NCBI GenBank assembly: GCA_012838805.1
Contig: DUON01000017.1
Location: 1 to 64,000 of the forward strand
From: Clostridiales bacterium
GTDB lineage: Bacteria; Bacillota; Clostridia; Christensenellales; DTU072
Direction of reading: 5' to 3'
DNA length: 64,000 bases
The position numbers and the translations under genes are program-made. The notes beneath the pieces are model-generated. The model searched no databases. It saw only the letters and a program-made list of their open reading frames with translations, and was not told where the DNA came from. Shown one piece after another: positions 1 to 19,615 of the stretch. Each line of letters opens with the position of its first letter. Positions within the stretch are counted from its first letter, which is position 1.

Positions 1-879
1 AACAGCTTCATCAAAACCATTTTTTTTAAGCAGTTTCAATATTCTATCGCCATAACCGCCTTTGACAAATATCACCATTCTTCCTTCACTAGCTAGATAT
101 AGAGGGTCTATACCTAAGATGTTGTTAATTGCCATTACTTTATCTTTAATAGGTATTGATTGTTCAGTAATTTCAATGCCTACCTTCTCGCTCGGAGCTA
201 TTTCGTTCAAAATAGTAGCAAGCCCTCCCCTTGTTGGGTCTTTCATTAGCTTTACATATTTGATATCTTCACCGAGAATATTTATTATACCATTCAAAGG
301 CATGCAATCGCTGATTAAATCTGTGGTAAATTTCATAGCTAGTCTGTCTAACATTATCGCTGATTCGTGTTCTGCTATTCCGCCTGTTATTATAATCTCA
401 TCACCTAATTCTAAATTCTGATATGAGAAATGCTCGCTTACCTGCCCTATGCCTGAAGTATTTATATACAGACCATCAACAGAACCCTTTTCCACAACTT
501 TTGTATCACCTGTCACAATTTGAGCGCCAGTCTTATCACAAATTTCTTTCATTGATTTCACTATTCTCTTCAAATTATATATGCTAAAACCTTCTTCAAT
601 AACAAAACCTGCGCTAATATATAGAGGTGATGCGCCAACTGTTGCAAGGTCATTAATCGTTCCGCATATGGATAATTTCCCTATATCACCGCCTCTGAAA
701 AACAAGGGTTTTACTACAAAACTGTCAGTTGTGAAAGCTAGCTTGTTTGCATTATTAAAAATATAGGAATCCAAACTTATACTTTTGGGATTATAAAGAT
801 AAGAACTGAAAATATCTTGAATAAGTTTAGAGGTATGATAACCGCCATCGCCATGTGATAAAAGAATTTTATCTTCCAT
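1..879 (-). CDS. hypE: HypE, hydrogenase maturation (carbamoyl dehydratase), C-terminus cut by window edge
   Basis: HypE dehydrates the thiocarboxamide that HypF builds on its C-terminal cysteine, making the thiocyanate that becomes the cyanide ligand of the [NiFe] active site. I translated it from the minus strand starting at ATG 877-879. The N-terminus reads MEDKILLSHGDGGYHTSK, followed by the AIR-synthase-like ATP-binding features FTTDSFVVKPLFFRGGDIG and a later DPTRGGLATILNEIAP segment. About 293 codons are present against a usual 330-340, so the last 40 or so residues, including the catalytic terminal Cys, lie outside the window. The start overlaps the end of hypD by 11 bases, so translation is probably coupled. 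It is the last visible gene of the minus-strand hyp operon. The identification is secure; the C-terminal Cys cannot be checked. Confidence 0.95.
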   Translation of the reverse strand, partial: MEDKILLSHGDGGYHTSKLIQDIFSSYLYNPKSISLDSYIFNNANKLAFTTDSFVVKPLFFRGGDIGKLSICGTINDLATVGASPLYISAGFVIEEGFSIYNLKRIVKSMKEICDKTGAQIVTGDTKVVEKGSVDGLYINTSGIGQVSEHFSYQNLELGDEIIITGGIAEHESAIMLDRLAMKFTTDLISDCMPLNGIINILGEDIKYVKLMKDPTRGGLATILNEIAPSEKVGIEITEQSIPIKDKVMAINNILGIDPLYLASEGRMVIFVKGGYGDRILKLLKKNGFDEAV

Positions 880-1921
880 ATGAATCTCCATATTTATAAT
901 AAGCTGCGCATGCGCCTTCAGATGTCACCATACAAGGGCCAATGGGTTTATCCGGAGTGCATTCTTTGCCAAAGAAAACACATTGTTTAGGAGATTTCAA
1001 TCCTAATAGTATTTCTGAACACTTACACTCATAACTTTCAACATTTTTTAGCTGTATGCCTAATCTTTTCATTGCGTTATACTCATCATACTCTTGTCTT
1101 ATGGTTAATCCGGATTGTTCAATTACTCCTATTCCACGCCAAAAACCCTCAGCCTTTTCAAAAACCTTATTCATAACGGAAAGGGCTTTTGTGTTGCCTT
1201 CCTTTCTAACACATCTTTGGTATAAATTGTTTAATTTGAAGTCTTTTTCGGTAATTTGTTTTAATAGCATTGTTATTCCCGAAATTATATCTAAACTTTC
1301 AAAACCGCATATTACCGATGGGATATTATAATCCTCACTTACAAAATTAAAGTGATTTGAGCCTGTTATCGTTGCGACATGTCCTGGCAATATTAGTGCA
1401 TTTATCTTGTTTAATTTATTATCTAATATATATCTTAATACCGGTTCCATAACCTTTAAAGCTGTAAGAAAAGTTATATTATTGATATTTTTACTTTGTG
1501 CTTCAATAACTAAAGATGCTATTATTGGCGCAGTGGTTTCAAAGCCGAAGGCGGCAAAAACAATTAGTTTATCCTTATTTTCGTTTGCAATGTTAAGCGC
1601 TTCTTTAGGCGAATAAGCAATACTGATGTTATTATGAGAATTCTCTTTTATTCTATAGTTTATAATATCGCCGAAGCTAACCAAAATGATATTGTTATCT
1701 CTTGATATGTCCATTAATAAATCTATATAAGAATCATCAGTCACGCAAACAGGACAACCAGGCCCTGAAATCAATGATATATTTTCAGAGAGAAGCTGTT
1801 TTATACCAGATTTAGCTATAGCTCTTGTATGCGTTCCGCATACTTCCATAATCTTTATTTCAAGTTCAGAGGCTTTGGATATGTAAATATTAAGATACTC
1901 CAGCATTTCTTTATTTATCAT
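869..1921 (-). CDS. hypD: HypD, hydrogenase maturation Fe-S scaffold
   Basis: HypD works with HypC as the scaffold on which the Fe(CN)2CO unit of [NiFe]-hydrogenase is assembled. At 350 aa it has the family's usual length. The conserved redox and iron-binding motifs are visible: CGTH at about residues 28-31, SGPGCPVC at 52-59, GFETTAP near 127, and LPGHV. The C-terminal [4Fe-4S] cysteines appear as CKCSEILLG, QCVFFGKEC and GPCMVTSEGACAAY. The gene overlaps both neighbours by 11 bases (hypC upstream, hypE downstream), the tight packing expected of a co-translated maturation operon. No key residue is missing, so I expect a working protein. Confidence 0.97.
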   Translation of the reverse strand: MINKEMLEYLNIYISKASELEIKIMEVCGTHTRAIAKSGIKQLLSENISLISGPGCPVCVTDDSYIDLLMDISRDNNIILVSFGDIINYRIKENSHNNISIAYSPKEALNIANENKDKLIVFAAFGFETTAPIIASLVIEAQSKNINNITFLTALKVMEPVLRYILDNKLNKINALILPGHVATITGSNHFNFVSEDYNIPSVICGFESLDIISGITMLLKQITEKDFKLNNLYQRCVRKEGNTKALSVMNKVFEKAEGFWRGIGVIEQSGLTIRQEYDEYNAMKRLGIQLKNVESYECKCSEILLGLKSPKQCVFFGKECTPDKPIGPCMVTSEGACAAYYKYGDSYGR

Positions 1922-2138
1922 TTTCAGCCTTTAGTTCTTTTAAATAAAAATCAGAAAGAAAATGGTAATAATTCATATCTATCTTTTCTATTGCATAACC
2001 AGCATGAACAATAACCATATCATTGATGCAAGGCTCTTCTAATAAAGAGATATCTATTTTTTGCCTTATTCCCATAATATCGGCTATTGCATAATTGTCT
2101 TCAATGTCGATTAATTTAGCGGGTATTGCAAGGCACAT
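1911..2138 (-). CDS. hypC: HypC, hydrogenase maturation chaperone
   Basis: HypC (75 aa) binds HypD and the large-subunit precursor and shuttles the iron centre. The N-terminus MCLAIPAKL carries the essential Cys2 that remains after Met removal, and the hallmark VHAGYAIEKID lies near residues 44-54. It overlaps hypF by 23 bases and hypD by 11 bases on the same strand. Length and motifs are normal for the HypC/HybG family. One HypC is seen, so it probably serves whichever [NiFe] enzyme the genome encodes. Confidence 0.95.
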   Translation of the reverse strand: MCLAIPAKLIDIEDNYAIADIMGIRQKIDISLLEEPCINDMVIVHAGYAIEKIDMNYYHFLSDFYLKELKAENDK

Positions 2139-4161
2139 TTTTCGCCTCCTTCAATCTTGCTGCTGCGACAGCTATTTGACCTAATGATATTCCGCCGTCA
2201 TTTATAGGTGTTTGTGTATTATAATAAACGTCATATCCATCCTTAATAAGACCCTTTGATATTCCTGAGAGAAGATAAGTGTTTTCAAAAACTCCACCGC
2301 TTAAAATCACTTTTTTTATTCCGCTTTCTGAGGATATCTTTTTCACCAATTCAAGGGTAGAATTAATGATTGTATTGTGAAACTTGGCTGATATTACTGA
2401 ACGGTCTATATCTTTATCAATATCTTCCACAATTCCCATAAGTATTTTTTTATAATCTATTCTATATGTATTGCCAGTAATAATTTCATATTGGTAACAA
2501 CCTGAAACTCTTTTATCAATAATGCTTTCTAATTCAATAGCCGCTTGGGCATCGTAAGAGACTGTATGGATCTGTTTCACGAGCGCAGAAACGCAATCAA
2601 ATAAGCGGCCCATACTTGAAGACGCTGTGCAATTTATACTGTTATTGATAGCAGATTCTAATATCTTGAAATCAGCTAAGTTTATACCTTTAATATATTT
2701 TTCCGAAGATATTTTAATAGAATATAGATAAGAAAAGGCGCATCTCCAAATTTTCTTAACCGCTTTATCATACCCTTGTATATTTACATAACTCCAATGA
2801 CCCGCTCTTTTAAAATTAGATCTGTTACCTACTAGAAACTCACCACCCCAAACAGCGTTATCCAAGCCTAAACCCGTGCCGTCATAAATTACGCCAATTA
2901 CTTCTTCGTCCAAATTGATTTCCGCCATGCAGCTTGCCATATGCGCATGATGATGTTGTACAAAAATTCTTTCTTGTGACATATCTCTTGCTATAATGCT
3001 TGTTGAATAACCGGTGTGAATATCACAAACAACATAATCCGATTTGACATTATAAAATCTTAGCATTCTAGCTATGGTATCAAGATAATCTTTTCTGCTC
3101 TTTAGATTATCGACTGCGTTAAAATATTGGCTTAAATGAGCATATCCTTTATGCAATAAGCAAAATGAAACTTTCTGTTCTGCTCCTAAAGCAAGTATTT
3201 TTTCCTCTGAATCCAGCGCTATATCAAAAGGCGCTATGCCTCGTGCTAGTCTTGATACCATTACTTCGTTACATACAACCTTAACAACGGAGTCATCTAT
3301 GGGTGTAGTTATCTCTCTGTTGTTATAAAGAAAATAATCAGCAATTCCCTTTAATCTGTCAAAGGCATAATCGTCTTCATAACATATGCCTTCTCCGCTA
3401 ATGTTTCCGCTTGTCATTACCAGATATTTAATATCGGAATCAAAAAATAGATAGTCCAGCGCAGAATTTGGAAGCATTAGTCCAAGTATGTTAAGGTTTG
3501 GGGCAAGGATATAAGGCAAGCTTATTTCTTGTTTCTTATCCAATAACACAATGGGTCTAATATGACTTTTCAGCGCTTGTTCTTCTTGTTCGTTTACATA
3601 GCATATTTCTTTTATGCTATCAATGTTCTCTGCCATAACCGCCAAAGGCTTATGGGGTCTTTTTTTTCTATCTCTTAATATGCTTATGGCTTTTTCATTC
3701 TCCGCGTTGCATACAAGATGGTATCCGCCAATCCCCTTAACGGCGATGATTTTTCCTTCTTTCAAGTATATTCTAGACATTTCTATGAGATTGCCAGATA
3801 AAGTTTTGCCACTATTATCAATTAGCTTAAGAACAGGTCCGCAATTGGGACAGCAATTTGTTTGCGCATAAAATCTTCTGTTTATATTATTAACATATTC
3901 ATCTTTACACATCTTACATTGAGCATACTTATTCATTGTAGTGTTTTCCCTGTCGTAGGGAAAATCATTTATTATTGAGTATCTAGGACCGCAGTATGAG
4001 CAATTTGTAAAAGGGTAATTATGCCTTCTATTATTTTTGTCCTTTAATTCCTCAAGGCATCTCTCGCATAAGGCTATATCTTTAGGAATATTACCTTTAT
4101 TTTTGTTATCAGGTATGCCTTTCAATTTTGAAATCTTCATAATAGAGATAATTTGCATCAA
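2116..4161 (-). CDS. hypF: HypF carbamoyltransferase, main part, in a different frame from its N-terminal domain
   Basis: This frame holds the zinc-finger, YrdC-like and Kae1-like parts of HypF, which makes carbamoyl-adenylate from carbamoyl phosphate and passes it to HypE. Zinc-finger cysteines are visible as CERCLEEL, CSYCGPRYSI, CKMCKDEY and CCPNCGP. The YrdC domain (GKIIAVKGIGGYHLVC) follows, then the Kae1-like VQHHHAHMASCMAE with its metal-binding histidines. The N-terminal acylphosphatase domain is missing here and lies just upstream in another frame (4109-4393). The homologous protein would join at about 4109-4115, where the upstream frame ends in TGA. The residues between 4161 and about 4110 in this frame are therefore probably not native. 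Either HypF is made by +1 frameshifting, or the gene is broken, or the base is an assembly error. Confidence 0.9.
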   Translation of the reverse strand: MMQIISIMKISKLKGIPDNKNKGNIPKDIALCERCLEELKDKNNRRHNYPFTNCSYCGPRYSIINDFPYDRENTTMNKYAQCKMCKDEYVNNINRRFYAQTNCCPNCGPVLKLIDNSGKTLSGNLIEMSRIYLKEGKIIAVKGIGGYHLVCNAENEKAISILRDRKKRPHKPLAVMAENIDSIKEICYVNEQEEQALKSHIRPIVLLDKKQEISLPYILAPNLNILGLMLPNSALDYLFFDSDIKYLVMTSGNISGEGICYEDDYAFDRLKGIADYFLYNNREITTPIDDSVVKVVCNEVMVSRLARGIAPFDIALDSEEKILALGAEQKVSFCLLHKGYAHLSQYFNAVDNLKSRKDYLDTIARMLRFYNVKSDYVVCDIHTGYSTSIIARDMSQERIFVQHHHAHMASCMAEINLDEEVIGVIYDGTGLGLDNAVWGGEFLVGNRSNFKRAGHWSYVNIQGYDKAVKKIWRCAFSYLYSIKISSEKYIKGINLADFKILESAINNSINCTASSSMGRLFDCVSALVKQIHTVSYDAQAAIELESIIDKRVSGCYQYEIITGNTYRIDYKKILMGIVEDIDKDIDRSVISAKFHNTIINSTLELVKKISSESGIKKVILSGGVFENTYLLSGISKGLIKDGYDVYYNTQTPINDGGISLGQIAVAAARLKEAKNVPCNTR

Positions 4162-4393
4162 TAATATCTAACTTTTCTATATTTGAGCCTGCTAAGTTAA
4201 TGTTTTTCAGCTCGTTAATAAACTTCTCTAAACTATGTTTTGAACCAATAATATCTATAATAACAGTAGTTGCGGCATTACAAACTTTTCCTTTTAAATC
4301 AAGTGACAATGCGAGATTATATATATAAGGTCGCATTCCTACGCCCTGAACCGCGCCTGTAAGATATACTATTTTTCTTATAACATTTGTCAC
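4109..4393 (-). CDS. hypF: Acylphosphatase domain of HypF (separated N-terminal piece)
   Basis: This 94-aa frame is the acylphosphatase domain that normally forms the first 90 residues of HypF and hydrolyses carbamoyl phosphate. The motif GAVQGVGMRPYIYNLA near residues 13-28 carries the phosphate-binding loop and the catalytic Arg. The start is GTG at 4393, overlapping the TAG stop of the short hypA by one base (TAGTG). The frame ends FKIERHT then TGA at 4109-4111. Reading one base further on continues as DNKNKGNIPKDIALC, which restores the spacing seen in intact HypF proteins (about 11 residues between the end of the domain and IPxDxAxC). Free-standing acylphosphatases exist, but the position and spacing show this is a HypF piece. 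Confidence 0.85.
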   Translation of the reverse strand: MTNVIRKIVYLTGAVQGVGMRPYIYNLALSLDLKGKVCNAATTVIIDIIGSKHSLEKFINELKNINLAGSNIEKLDIIDANYLYYEDFKIERHT

Positions 4394-4641
4394 TATTGAC
4401 CTTCTACTTCTTTTATTACAGCGACTAAAGGCTCCAGCTCTGTTCTTTCAATAATTATTGAAGTATTCTCTGTTATCAATTCGCATTGCCTTGAAATAAA
4501 AATATCCTGCAAAGACTTATCATTAACATGGCTGTCTGTATTTACTTCAATTACTATTTTGTCTACTTGCTGTATATCCTTTTCCGTACATAGGCTTTTT
4601 ATTCCTTCATATAATCTCTCTATTAAAAACGTATCATGCAT
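4393..4641 (-). CDS. Short HypA-like nickel chaperone without zinc ribbon
   Basis: This 82-aa protein begins MHDTFLIERLYEGI. HypA proteins also begin Met-His-Glu/Asp; His2 and the acidic third residue bind nickel. The middle (VNDKSLQDIF, then SIIIERTELEP) follows the HypA alpha/beta fold, and the end (LVAVIKEVEGQ) matches the last HypA strand (in other HypA proteins roughly LxVKEIEVE). What is missing is the roughly 35-residue zinc hairpin with two CxxC motifs that is standard in HypA/HybF; there is no CxxC anywhere. It sits exactly where hypA would be expected, between the maturation peptidase (8-base overlap) and hypF (1-base overlap). A close copy, about 47 of 82 residues identical by eye, lies at 19367-19615. 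That it delivers nickel is inferred from the N-terminus and the context. Confidence 0.7.
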   Translation of the reverse strand: MHDTFLIERLYEGIKSLCTEKDIQQVDKIVIEVNTDSHVNDKSLQDIFISRQCELITENTSIIIERTELEPLVAVIKEVEGQ

Positions 4642-5098
4642 TTACAAAACCCTCCGATATAGCTTTAATTATTTTTTCTATCTCATTACATAAATCTATG
4701 AATTTTTTTGTCAGCTCATTACTTAAACCCAGACCAAAATTAATCTCTTCCACTTTTATGCCAATAAGATATCCTTTAATGTTTTTGTTATATAGTCGGC
4801 ATAAATGCAATACATCACTATCATGATTTGTCTTATTAGAAAATGTGTTTTTTGATATATCTTCAAGATTATAAACCTTTATATAGCCTATTTCTTCATC
4901 CTGAATTATCGCATCAACTAGAATTATTATATCTTGGTCAGAAATCTGATTGTAAGCGTACATTGCATCTGTTTCGGCTATAATATATTCAATATGAGAT
5001 TCATTATTAATTGCTCTTTTTGTCAATTCTCTAACAACGTATACTGCTACGCCATCATCTGTCATCAGCGTATTTCCAATAGCTAATACTTTAATCAT
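4634..5098 (-). CDS. [NiFe]-hydrogenase maturation peptidase (HycI/HyaD family)
   Basis: Members of this family cut the C-terminal tail from the hydrogenase large subunit once the metal centre is in place. At 154 aa the length is normal. The N-terminus IKVLAIGNTLMTDDGVAVYV carries the family motif GNxLxxDDG, with the acidic nickel-sensing residue shifted to Asp. ILVDAI supplies the second ligand (Asp, about residue 61), and NHDSDVLHL supplies the His region near residue 95. GIKVEEINFGLGLSNEL matches the usual GI-P-x-x-I-x-x-G-x-x-LS block. It overlaps the radical SAM gene upstream by 4 bases (ATGA type) and the short hypA downstream. Its presence implies that a tail-bearing large subunit is encoded elsewhere. 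Confidence 0.9.
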   Translation of the reverse strand: MIKVLAIGNTLMTDDGVAVYVVRELTKRAINNESHIEYIIAETDAMYAYNQISDQDIIILVDAIIQDEEIGYIKVYNLEDISKNTFSNKTNHDSDVLHLCRLYNKNIKGYLIGIKVEEINFGLGLSNELTKKFIDLCNEIEKIIKAISEGFVNA

Positions 5099-6300
5099 TC
5101 TAAAGCCTTCAAGTAGTCACGGTTATTTTCTATTATATGTTTATTTTGAAGAGGATAAGGAAGGTTTTCCACTACTGTTTTAGTTAAATTATGGGATAAC
5201 ATTATTCCCTTATTGGTCAATTTATTCTTTTTTATAAAGCCACATATTCTTAATATCAACAAATACGTTTTCATATAGAATGGTAGCTTTATGTTATTAT
5301 TGATTTCTAAATCATACAACATTCTGGAGAAATGTCTCCAGATGTCCGTATTTTTATCCTTTATGGATATCAACGCATAATGTTTGTTTTCATTATGGTT
5401 TTTTAAATATACAGATAATTCAGGGTTTACTACCTTATAATTATCATATGTGGAAAATGCGGCTGGACCAAATCCAATATAATCTTCAATTAGTTCATCT
5501 CTTGAAGAGTCATAAATGTCATCTTCAATTGTGAATGTCCATATGCCAGACCTCTTGTAGCCTATAGCCTTCAAAATTGTCCAAGCTTTCTCTATTAGTT
5601 GAAACTGTTCTGATTCTTTCATCTTTGAAGAATTTGAATTTGAACCTATCATCATATAAGGATATATTGTTATCTGGCTAGGTTTTTCAATTGAAAGGTT
5701 TTTAACATCATTAAGAAATGATTCAGCAGTTTGATTAGCAAGTCCTACCATAAGATCAATATTTACAAACAGTTTAAGCTTTTTGCTTTCAGATATCAAT
5801 TTAATAATTTTATTATCTTCAGCAATCAATCTTTGAGTATTACTAATAACTTCCTTAGCCATACTTTCAATGCCTAAGCTGATTTTGTTAAAGCCTATTT
5901 CAACTAATCCTTTTAGATATTCATTTGTTAATATTGAGGGCAACAATTCTATGCCAAGACTTTGAGTCTCAACCTTCTCTTTTACCTTTGTGATTATGTC
6001 TGATAAATCTTTCAAGGAAAGCGTGTTAGGTGTTCCTCCGCCTATGTACATCCATTTGGCGTTGCCTTTAATATCTTTGCATTCTATTTCGTTTGATAAC
6101 GCTTTAACATATCGGTTTTTTTGTTTCTCATTAAATATTTCTTTATAGAAAGGACAGAAATTACATTTGCTATAACAGAAAGGCACATGTATATATATTC
6201 CGAACTCGCCTTTTATTTTATAGTCAGGAACCTGTTCATACCTATATGTAACACCTGAGAAAGCTTTTTTCATTAATTCATTACTTTTTTCTATAATCAT
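5095..6300 (-). CDS. Radical SAM protein, HemW / coproporphyrinogen-oxidase-like, first gene of the hyp operon
   Basis: This 401-aa protein belongs to the HemN/HemW branch of radical SAM enzymes. GIYIHVPFCYSKCNFCPFYK at about residues 34-53 holds the CX3CX2C cluster (C42, C46, C49), and MYIGGGTPNTLS at about 85-96 is the SAM-binding GGGTP. A HemW-type C-terminal domain follows (YIGFGPAAFSTYDNYKVVN, then a winged-helix-like tail). The usual HemW aromatic step after the third Cys is Pro here. It is unlikely to be the general haem chaperone, because it heads an operon of hydrogenase maturation genes and overlaps the next gene by 4 bases. A role in hydrogenase assembly is inferred from position only. 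The ribosome site before ATG 6300 is weak. Confidence 0.8.
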   Translation of the reverse strand: MIIEKSNELMKKAFSGVTYRYEQVPDYKIKGEFGIYIHVPFCYSKCNFCPFYKEIFNEKQKNRYVKALSNEIECKDIKGNAKWMYIGGGTPNTLSLKDLSDIITKVKEKVETQSLGIELLPSILTNEYLKGLVEIGFNKISLGIESMAKEVISNTQRLIAEDNKIIKLISESKKLKLFVNIDLMVGLANQTAESFLNDVKNLSIEKPSQITIYPYMMIGSNSNSSKMKESEQFQLIEKAWTILKAIGYKRSGIWTFTIEDDIYDSSRDELIEDYIGFGPAAFSTYDNYKVVNPELSVYLKNHNENKHYALISIKDKNTDIWRHFSRMLYDLEINNNIKLPFYMKTYLLILRICGFIKKNKLTNKGIMLSHNLTKTVVENLPYPLQNKHIIENNRDYLKALE

Positions 6301-6366
6301 TTCAATATTCTACTCTTATATGTTTTTTTATTATTATATTCTTTATAAAAAACTATAGACCCTATT

Positions 6367-6404
6367 AAAAAAAAGAGTGACAAGGTTCTACCCTCGTCGC
6401 TCTT
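6367..6404 (-). terminator. Strong terminator-type hairpin upstream of the hyp operon
   Basis: Read on the minus strand, arms AAGAGCGAC (6404-6396) and GTCACTCTT (6381-6373) pair with one G.U, extended by AGG/CCT around a 6-base loop, and are followed by eight T residues (6374-6367). No minus-strand gene is seen just upstream, and the hyp operon starts 67 bases downstream at 6300. It may be a leader attenuator or the terminator of a lost gene. Confidence 0.65.
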
Positions 6405-6420
6405 ATCCTTATTTTTACTC

Positions 6421-6507
6421 ACGCCGGATGGCGAACATTCGCATGCTGTGTGCGTAACCGGTGACAGTCTGGAAGCCATCGTGCGGGATGTCTTTAAAAA
6501 CTTATAG
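6421..6507 (+). pseudogene. C-terminal fragment of an unrecognised gene
   Basis: From 6421 the plus strand reads TPDGEHSHAVCVTGDSLE followed by AIVRDVFKNL and a TAG stop at 6505. The stretch is clearly richer in G+C than the hyp operon beside it and looks like the end of a real protein, but no start or upstream body exists: the frame runs back into the hairpin at 6367-6404. A ribosome-site-like TAGGAGGAAA follows directly, then a stub ending EVNVNKLEE and TGA at 6549-6551. I do not recognise the family. It is best read as leftover 3' ends of a small operon after a deletion. Confidence 0.4.
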
Positions 6508-19366: not shown

Positions 19367-19615
19367 ATGCATGATACTTTTCTTATTGAGAGACTGTATA
19401 AGGCAATAAAATGTCTGTGTGCCGAAAAGGATATAAGTCTGATAAGAAAGACAATAATCGAAGTCAATGAGAACAGCCGTGTCAATGAAGAATCCCTAAT
19501 CTCTTTTTTTAAGGACATGAATTCGCAATTAGTGGATGATAAAACGATGTTTACCATAGAGAGAACCGACTTGGAACCTCTGATTGCGGTCATAAAGGTA
19601 ATTGAAGGGCAATAG
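19367..19615 (+). CDS. Second short HypA-like protein without zinc ribbon
   Basis: This 82-aa protein begins MHDTFLIERLYKAIKCLCAE and ends IERTDLEPLIAVIKVIEGQ. It is a paralogue of the protein at 4393-4641, with the same length and no indels; by eye about 47 of 82 positions are identical. Met-His-Asp at the N-terminus matches the nickel site of HypA, and again no CxxC pair is present; the CLC here is in the first helix. No hydrogenase gene is near: its neighbours are a phosphoesterase and a broken acetyltransferase. It may be an old duplicate or a chaperone for another nickel enzyme. ATG 19367 is chosen because His2 is the functional residue; the ribosome site (GAGATG) is weak. Confidence 0.65.
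   Translation: MHDTFLIERLYKAIKCLCAEKDISLIRKTIIEVNENSRVNEESLISFFKDMNSQLVDDKTMFTIERTDLEPLIAVIKVIEGQ

Follow-up and report, generated by a model that had tools for sequence, protein, structure and literature searches.

A HypA homologue without zinc ribbon and a proposed HypB-independent route of nickel insertion into [NiFe]-hydrogenases of Clostridia

Can a HypA protein serve the maturation of a [NiFe]-hydrogenase without its zinc domain? A zinc site built of two CxxC motifs was attributed to 'all HypA proteins' in a 2019 review (PMC7055735). The question is raised by a cluster of hydrogenase maturation (hyp) genes at the beginning of the stretch analysed here (contig DUON01000017.1, positions 1 to 64,000; the window, 64,000 nucleotides in length), which belongs to a MAG of 1.69 Mb (95% complete) of a Clostridiales bacterium. 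At 4393–4641 on the minus strand, the cluster contains an open reading frame for 82 amino acids (MHDTFLIERLYEGIKSLCTEKDIQQVDKIVIEVNTDSHVNDKSLQDIFISRQCELITENTSIIIERTELEPLVAVIKEVEGQ), which we identify, by its Pfam HypA match, signature residues and predicted fold, as a zinc-less homologue of HypA, and which we call mini-HypA. The gene has an ATG start and a GGAGG Shine-Dalgarno sequence, and overlaps by 8 bp with the upstream hycI and by 1 bp with the start codon of hypF. The encoded protein keeps an MHD N-terminus in the place of HypA's nickel site, S37-H38 and the last β strand, and contains no CxxC motif.

The genes on the minus strand are arranged in the order radical SAM protein, HycI-type protease, mini-HypA, HypF (in two frames), HypC, HypD and HypE. 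The hydrogenase maturation protease of the HycI/HyaD family (4634–5098; Pfam HycI, 42 bits; TIGR00072, 90 bits) lies directly upstream of mini-HypA. Downstream of mini-HypA, the first part of hypF, which encodes the acylphosphatase domain (4109–4393; PF00708, 60 bits), differs in frame from the main part, encoding the zinc fingers and the YrdC and Kae1-like domains (2116–4161; TIGR00143, 670 bits), and overlaps with it by 53 bp. These are followed by hypC (1911–2138; PF01455, 74 bits), hypD (869–1921; PF01924, 421 bits; also placed in the HypD tree described below) and hypE (1–879; TIGR02124, 350 bits, residues 1–291 of 332 matched), the last of which is truncated by the contig end. At the upstream end of the cluster, a gene for a HemN-like radical SAM protein (5095–6300, minus strand; PF04055, 52 bits) abuts the protease gene; its product scores under the cut-off of all named subfamilies. 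We considered this protein as a member of the module, but it is absent from the hyp operons of relatives and so probably stands outside it.

The Pfam HypA profile matched residues 1–69 of the window protein on profile positions 1–69 of 112 (E = 9.6e-6), with a score below the curated cut-off (26.0 versus 28.9 bits), as was also the case for TIGR00100 (19.1 versus 88.1 bits). Among 28 members of the family, 24 gave a Pfam HypA match at E<=0.1, and none reached the Pfam or NCBIfam HypA cut-off (best member, E = 8.1e-6 and 6.8e-5, respectively), which makes the family largely invisible to annotation. The AlphaFold2 model, predicted with the 28-member alignment, had a pLDDT of 92 and a pTM of 0.80. 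In structural alignment of this model, the six top entries were HypA (Z 9.7–10.8, rmsd 1.7–2.3 Å, 75–79 of 82 residues), the best being 5aup_H (Z 10.8, 1.7 Å over 76 of 82 residues), and the best non-HypA fold had a Z of 7.2. The ten best chains found by Foldseek were likewise all HypA. Since the aligned chain range of Thermococcus kodakarensis HypA was 1–134, superposition extends over both the N-domain and the final strand, and the intervening zinc domain is absent. The profile and fold comparisons show mini-HypA to be a HypA homologue with the zinc ribbon excised, that is, a two-helix β-sheet N-domain closed by HypA's own C-terminal strand.

A first-pass annotation, made from the sequence alone, had described the gene as a HypA without zinc ribbon that ends like HypA. 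The description was correct on both points: the protein has 82 residues, a Pfam HypA match over residues 1–69, no CxxC and homologues in other genomes, and its final strand superposes on that of HypA in the predicted structure. A prediction of an unrelated fold, which would have refuted it, did not occur, the six top matches aligning both before and after the excised zinc domain. What that annotation, having seen the zinc-less HypA, had missed were the second copy of the gene, the absence of HypB, the split of hypF and the D3/C18/H38 signature, all considered below. We also looked for the zinc domain in another frame or downstream, but there is no coding frame for one within 4393–4641 and the next genes follow directly. 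Nor does the source genome encode a normal HypA elsewhere; its remaining PF01155 matches are short and mostly to the zinc-ribbon part of the profile.

Scanning of GTDB contigs and IMG/VR with both window copies gave no matches, BLAST of 117 relatives of the source genome gave no mini-HypA, and none was found in plasmids searched with the mini-HypA of Clostridium beijerinckii as query. The family surfaced only when HypF was used as bait in GTDB (80 loci). In 26 loci with the closest HypF, a CxxC-free protein of 82–86 amino acids is encoded immediately upstream of hypF, between hycI and hypF. The exceptions among the closest loci are L083, where the contig ends before the gene, and L089 and L090, which have no HypA there; loci with a more distant HypF carry a zinc-type HypA or none. 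In L090 (9156–9750), from Clostridium sartagoforme and of the same Hyp clade, HycI is followed directly by HypF.

Altogether, other genomes yielded at least 33 further members, of which about 32 lie in hyp operons; all have lengths of about 82–92 amino acids and none has a CxxC. Their hosts include C. beijerinckii, C. bovifaecis, C. rectalis, C. guangxiense, Anaerotignum, Natronincola, Geosporobacter, Anaerosolibacter, Sedimentibacter and Oscillibacter valericigenes. The first-pass annotation had pointed to a cluster of short CxxC-free homologues linked to hyp operons as support, and to a lack of any linkage as refutation; proteins of 82–86 amino acids without CxxC are indeed linked to hyp operons in many genomes, and the refuting outcome did not occur.

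The module is ordered small subunit, large subunit, HycI, mini-HypA, HypF, HypC, HypD and HypE or, alternatively (Anaerotignum type, G576), HycI to HypE and then small and large subunit. Mini-HypA lies directly before hypF in 26 of 26 named loci, and the large subunit is present in the fetched stretch of 25. This partner large subunit keeps the four metal-binding Cys and the C-terminal tail for the protease, and the enzyme is closest to the NiFeSe-type group 1 [NiFe] hydrogenases, but with Cys. In a class-wide sample of 301 genomes, 11 carry mini-HypA (the source genome included), and 9 of 10 class-sample loci adjoin hyp genes. The named and class samples overlap in three cases (L091/G553, L102/G451 and L124/G634), and their counts are not additive unless these are removed. 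In a tree of HypD sequences (82 rows), a single clade of 36 rows (support 100/100) takes in all 34 mini-HypA loci, the remaining two rows being L083, with its contig cut before the gene, and L090, without HypA. The mini-HypA module belongs to a single monophyletic lineage.

What distinguishes mini-HypA, apart from the missing zinc ribbon, is the set of residues around the nickel site. M1, H2, D3, S37, A74 and G81 are invariant in the family (n = 28), and H38 and C18 are each present in 27 of 28 members. The residue after Met-His is Asp in 28/28 mini-HypA, whereas in zinc-type HypA (n = 35) position 3 is Glu in 35/35, position 38 is Gly, Ser or Ala in 32/35 and position 18 is Ala in 32/35. In the alignment with Helicobacter pylori HypA, position 38 lies two residues ahead of Asp40, a nickel ligand of that protein together with the N-terminal amine, His2 and Glu3 (PMC7055735). 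In the T. kodakarensis HypAB complex, binding of HypB moves His98, on the zinc-domain side of HypA, into the nickel site (PMC7055735). H38 is placed where an extra imidazole could replace the function of His98; this is read from aligned sequences, the geometry not having been measured.

Mini-HypA copies within the operon keep H2 and H38; those outside the standard module position have lost one or the other. The copy of G521 (L166, 9273–9542) starts with MGN, thus lacking MH, and has Arg in place of H38, and the second copy of G586 (L170, 12627–12905) starts with MND and has lost MH; both lie outside the standard module position. The loss of ligands in out-of-module copies can be regarded as a small natural experiment in favour of functional H2 and H38, at the level of sequence.

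We think it likely that mini-HypA acts as the nickel-delivery subunit in a form of group-1 [NiFe]-hydrogenase maturation free of both HypB and zinc. HypA homology, fold, operon linkage, a single lineage and, as described below, the absence of HypB from most hosts are established by the data, and to these the proposal adds, by inference, nickel binding, the role of H38 and direct transfer to the large subunit; no experiment shows that the protein binds nickel. In the proposed sequence of events, HypCDEF would first place Fe(CN)2CO in the large subunit. Mini-HypA would then bind Ni(II) via the N-terminal amine, the backbone and side chains of H2 and D3, and the family-specific H38, dock on the large subunit in the manner of HypA in the HyhL–HypA crystal structures and hand over the nickel, after which HycI would cut the C-terminal tail. 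H38 would thereby act as a permanent imidazole equivalent to His98, with the consequence that neither the zinc domain nor an NTPase would be needed.

Alternatively, mini-HypA may be only a docking or scaffold subunit, which, like HypA in the HyhL–HypA structure, holds the immature large subunit open while free cellular nickel enters unaided. This would fit the joint disappearance of the zinc domain and HypB, both of which belong to the nickel-acquisition cycle, and the N-domain of HypA indeed contacts the large subunit in 5yxy and 5yy0, which are among the best fold matches to mini-HypA. However, no in-operon copy deviates at H2 or D3, and a new His has become fixed next to the site, neither of which a pure scaffold would need, and we therefore regard this explanation as unlikely, though it deserves to be kept in mind.

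The second feature of the proposed nickel-delivery route is the lack of HypB, which was found neither in the source genome nor in its hyp operon. The first-pass annotation had placed mini-HypA at the exact hypA position. That is correct as far as the hyp operon goes, but in canonical loci hypA is mostly followed by hypB. A search with the HypB model at E = 1e-12 gave no match in 10 of 10 other class-sample hosts. HypB is therefore present in 0/11 mini-HypA genomes (these 10 and the source), as opposed to 57/70 zinc-type HypA genomes (Fisher p = 2e-7). The test ignores kinship; as the hosts are related, mostly Clostridia, independence is overstated and the contrast is partly phylogenetic. HypB does occur in 6 of the 26 named hosts, and exactly these encode a separate zinc-type HypA as well. 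In Calditrichales MX18-03, a second, diverged HypA occurs without HypB, and the other 19 have neither HypB nor zinc-type HypA, with one borderline HypB-like match. The distribution of HypB across hosts suggests that loss of the zinc ribbon accompanies doing without HypB. Loss of HypB is not unique to mini-HypA, since 13 of the 70 zinc-type HypA genomes are also without a recognised HypB. Excess nickel rescues hypB mutants of Escherichia coli (PMC12134894), which makes HypB-free insertion chemically reasonable.

Another GTPase, of the G3E or MeaB type, could stand in for HypB, and weak matches exist. If so, mini-HypA would still work with a GTPase, either a diverged HypB-like or a CobW/MeaB-type protein, encoded elsewhere in the genome. 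HypB in six named hosts, and weak G3E-type matches under the HypB cut-off in several others (for example, 93 bits in G1178), could be taken this way. No such gene, however, is found in any mini-HypA module, the HypB model detected nothing at the above threshold in any of the class-sample hosts, and wherever a host does have HypB, a zinc-type HypA is present as its possible partner. We consider such a partner improbable.

The window contains a second mini-HypA gene, at 19367–19615 on the plus strand, with no hyp gene adjoining. This orphan copy also encodes exactly 82 amino acids and is 57% identical to the operon copy, with a dN of about 0.27–0.32, saturated dS and identities of 67, 79 and 44% at the three codon positions. 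The 57% identity at equal length, together with saturated synonymous sites, indicates that the short form arose long ago and has been maintained by purifying selection. The two copies group as sisters in the phylogenetic tree (100/99), the branch of the orphan copy being the longer one. The latter keeps H2 and D3 and has Arg in place of H38, and has probably ceased to act as a normal nickel chaperone. A sequencing error or a recent deletion of the zinc ribbon is ruled out by this second copy, with its saturated synonymous sites, and by the homologues.

Whether the module is intact in the source organism is less clear. hypF is split at about 4109–4161 into two overlapping frames and is a single frame in the relatives checked; the split may be an assembly error or a real lesion or decay, which remains undecided, and with a frameshifted HypF the module could be broken or mis-assembled. 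A [NiFe] hydrogenase large subunit was not detected in the source genome (at 95% completeness), and the contig stops inside hypE. From the Anaerotignum-type order, in which the hydrogenase subunits come after HypE, we infer that the hydrogenase may lie beyond the contig end, which would account for its absence from the window. The G+C content of the hyp cluster (window 1–6500) is about 29–36%, versus about 33–48% for most of the remaining first 24 kb and 39.7% for the whole window, and GC3 is 0.27 in the operon copy versus 0.42 in the orphan copy. The low G+C makes a foreign origin of the cluster possible.

The split hypF, the undetected large subunit and the orphan copy without H38 might suggest that the hyp cluster of this MAG is broken and that mini-HypA is what remains of a normal HypA in decay. 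This is scarcely credible given two copies of exactly 82 amino acids with a dN of about 0.3 and saturated dS, and the recurrence of the same zinc-less length and gene place in many genomes, so that this idea is excluded for the family as a whole, though not for the source genome's own module.

Mini-HypA shares with HypA/HybF (PF01155, TIGR00100; 3a43, 5aun, 5yxy, 6g81) the N-domain fold, the Met-His start, the α-β core and the final strand, as well as the place before hypF in the hyp operon and the role beside large subunit and protease. It differs from them in the lack of zinc ribbon and CxxC, in length (82–86 versus about 113 amino acids), in Asp rather than Glu at position 3, in His38 and Cys18, in usually having no HypB partner and in scoring under every curated HypA cut-off. 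A CxxC-type zinc site is found in none of the members of 82–86 amino acids, and therefore the published definition (an N-terminal nickel site plus a zinc site) is not met and mini-HypA is not HypA in the strict sense; it is a sister family whose members probably work like HypA. No earlier description of the family was found in the open-access literature (subscription journals were outside the search).

With the HypA–HypB cycle of T. kodakarensis, E. coli and H. pylori, the mini-HypA module has in common the proposed loading of nickel into the large subunit already containing Fe(CN)2CO, before cleavage by the protease. In contrast to that cycle, the module, like most of its host genomes, is without HypB, and mini-HypA has no flexible zinc domain that would carry His98 to the nickel site.

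Another zinc-less type of HypA is found in L064 (9198–9440; G060) and L068 (9885–10136; G672). These proteins, of 80–84 amino acids, start with MHE and lack H38; HypB follows, a two-cluster 4Fe-4S protein precedes, and hypCDEF are not beside them. In the isr operon of Acetobacterium wieringae, HypA and HypB are used outside hydrogenase, in a HypA–HypB–ferredoxin module (PMC10134865). Its gene content resembles that of the G060 and G672 loci, but the isr HypAs keep both CxxC motifs, whereas the G060 and G672 proteins, likewise paired with HypB, are without the ribbon. In the latter type, the zinc ribbon seems to have been lost independently, and in a nickel module unrelated to hydrogenase.

C. 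autoethanogenum, C. ljungdahlii, C. coskatii, C. ragsdalei and AWRP have HypC, HypD, HypE and HypF but no identifiable HypA or HypB (PMC9431212). C. autoethanogenum has a group 1a [NiFe] hydrogenase, and an unreported route for nickel was suggested (PMC9431212). A mini-HypA module, if scored with the present HypA models, would be expected to appear in just this way, as HypCDEF without recognisable HypA/HypB. Mini-HypA in these acetogens would fit the gap, which is a prediction and not a result. Whether Clostridia have a distinct HypB- and zinc-independent pathway of group-1 nickel insertion, resting on a protein of 82–86 amino acids with a built-in H38, that explains why HypA/HypB are 'missing' from C. 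autoethanogenum, C. ljungdahlii and their relatives is, in our judgement, evenly balanced.

The zinc domain of HypA and NTP hydrolysis by HypB are treated as general in nickel insertion, and a monophyletic set of Clostridia appears to manage without both. Mini-HypA thus offers a minimal system, provided by nature, in which the purpose of the zinc domain and of HypB can be examined. It would also resolve a published open question on the acetogens of industrial gas fermentation, which have HypCDEF and a [NiFe] hydrogenase and no recognisable nickel-inserting pair (PMC9431212). The alignment profile (A4) allows this unannotated gene family to be named, and mini-HypA is a small chaperone that could be tried when hydrogenases are produced heterologously.
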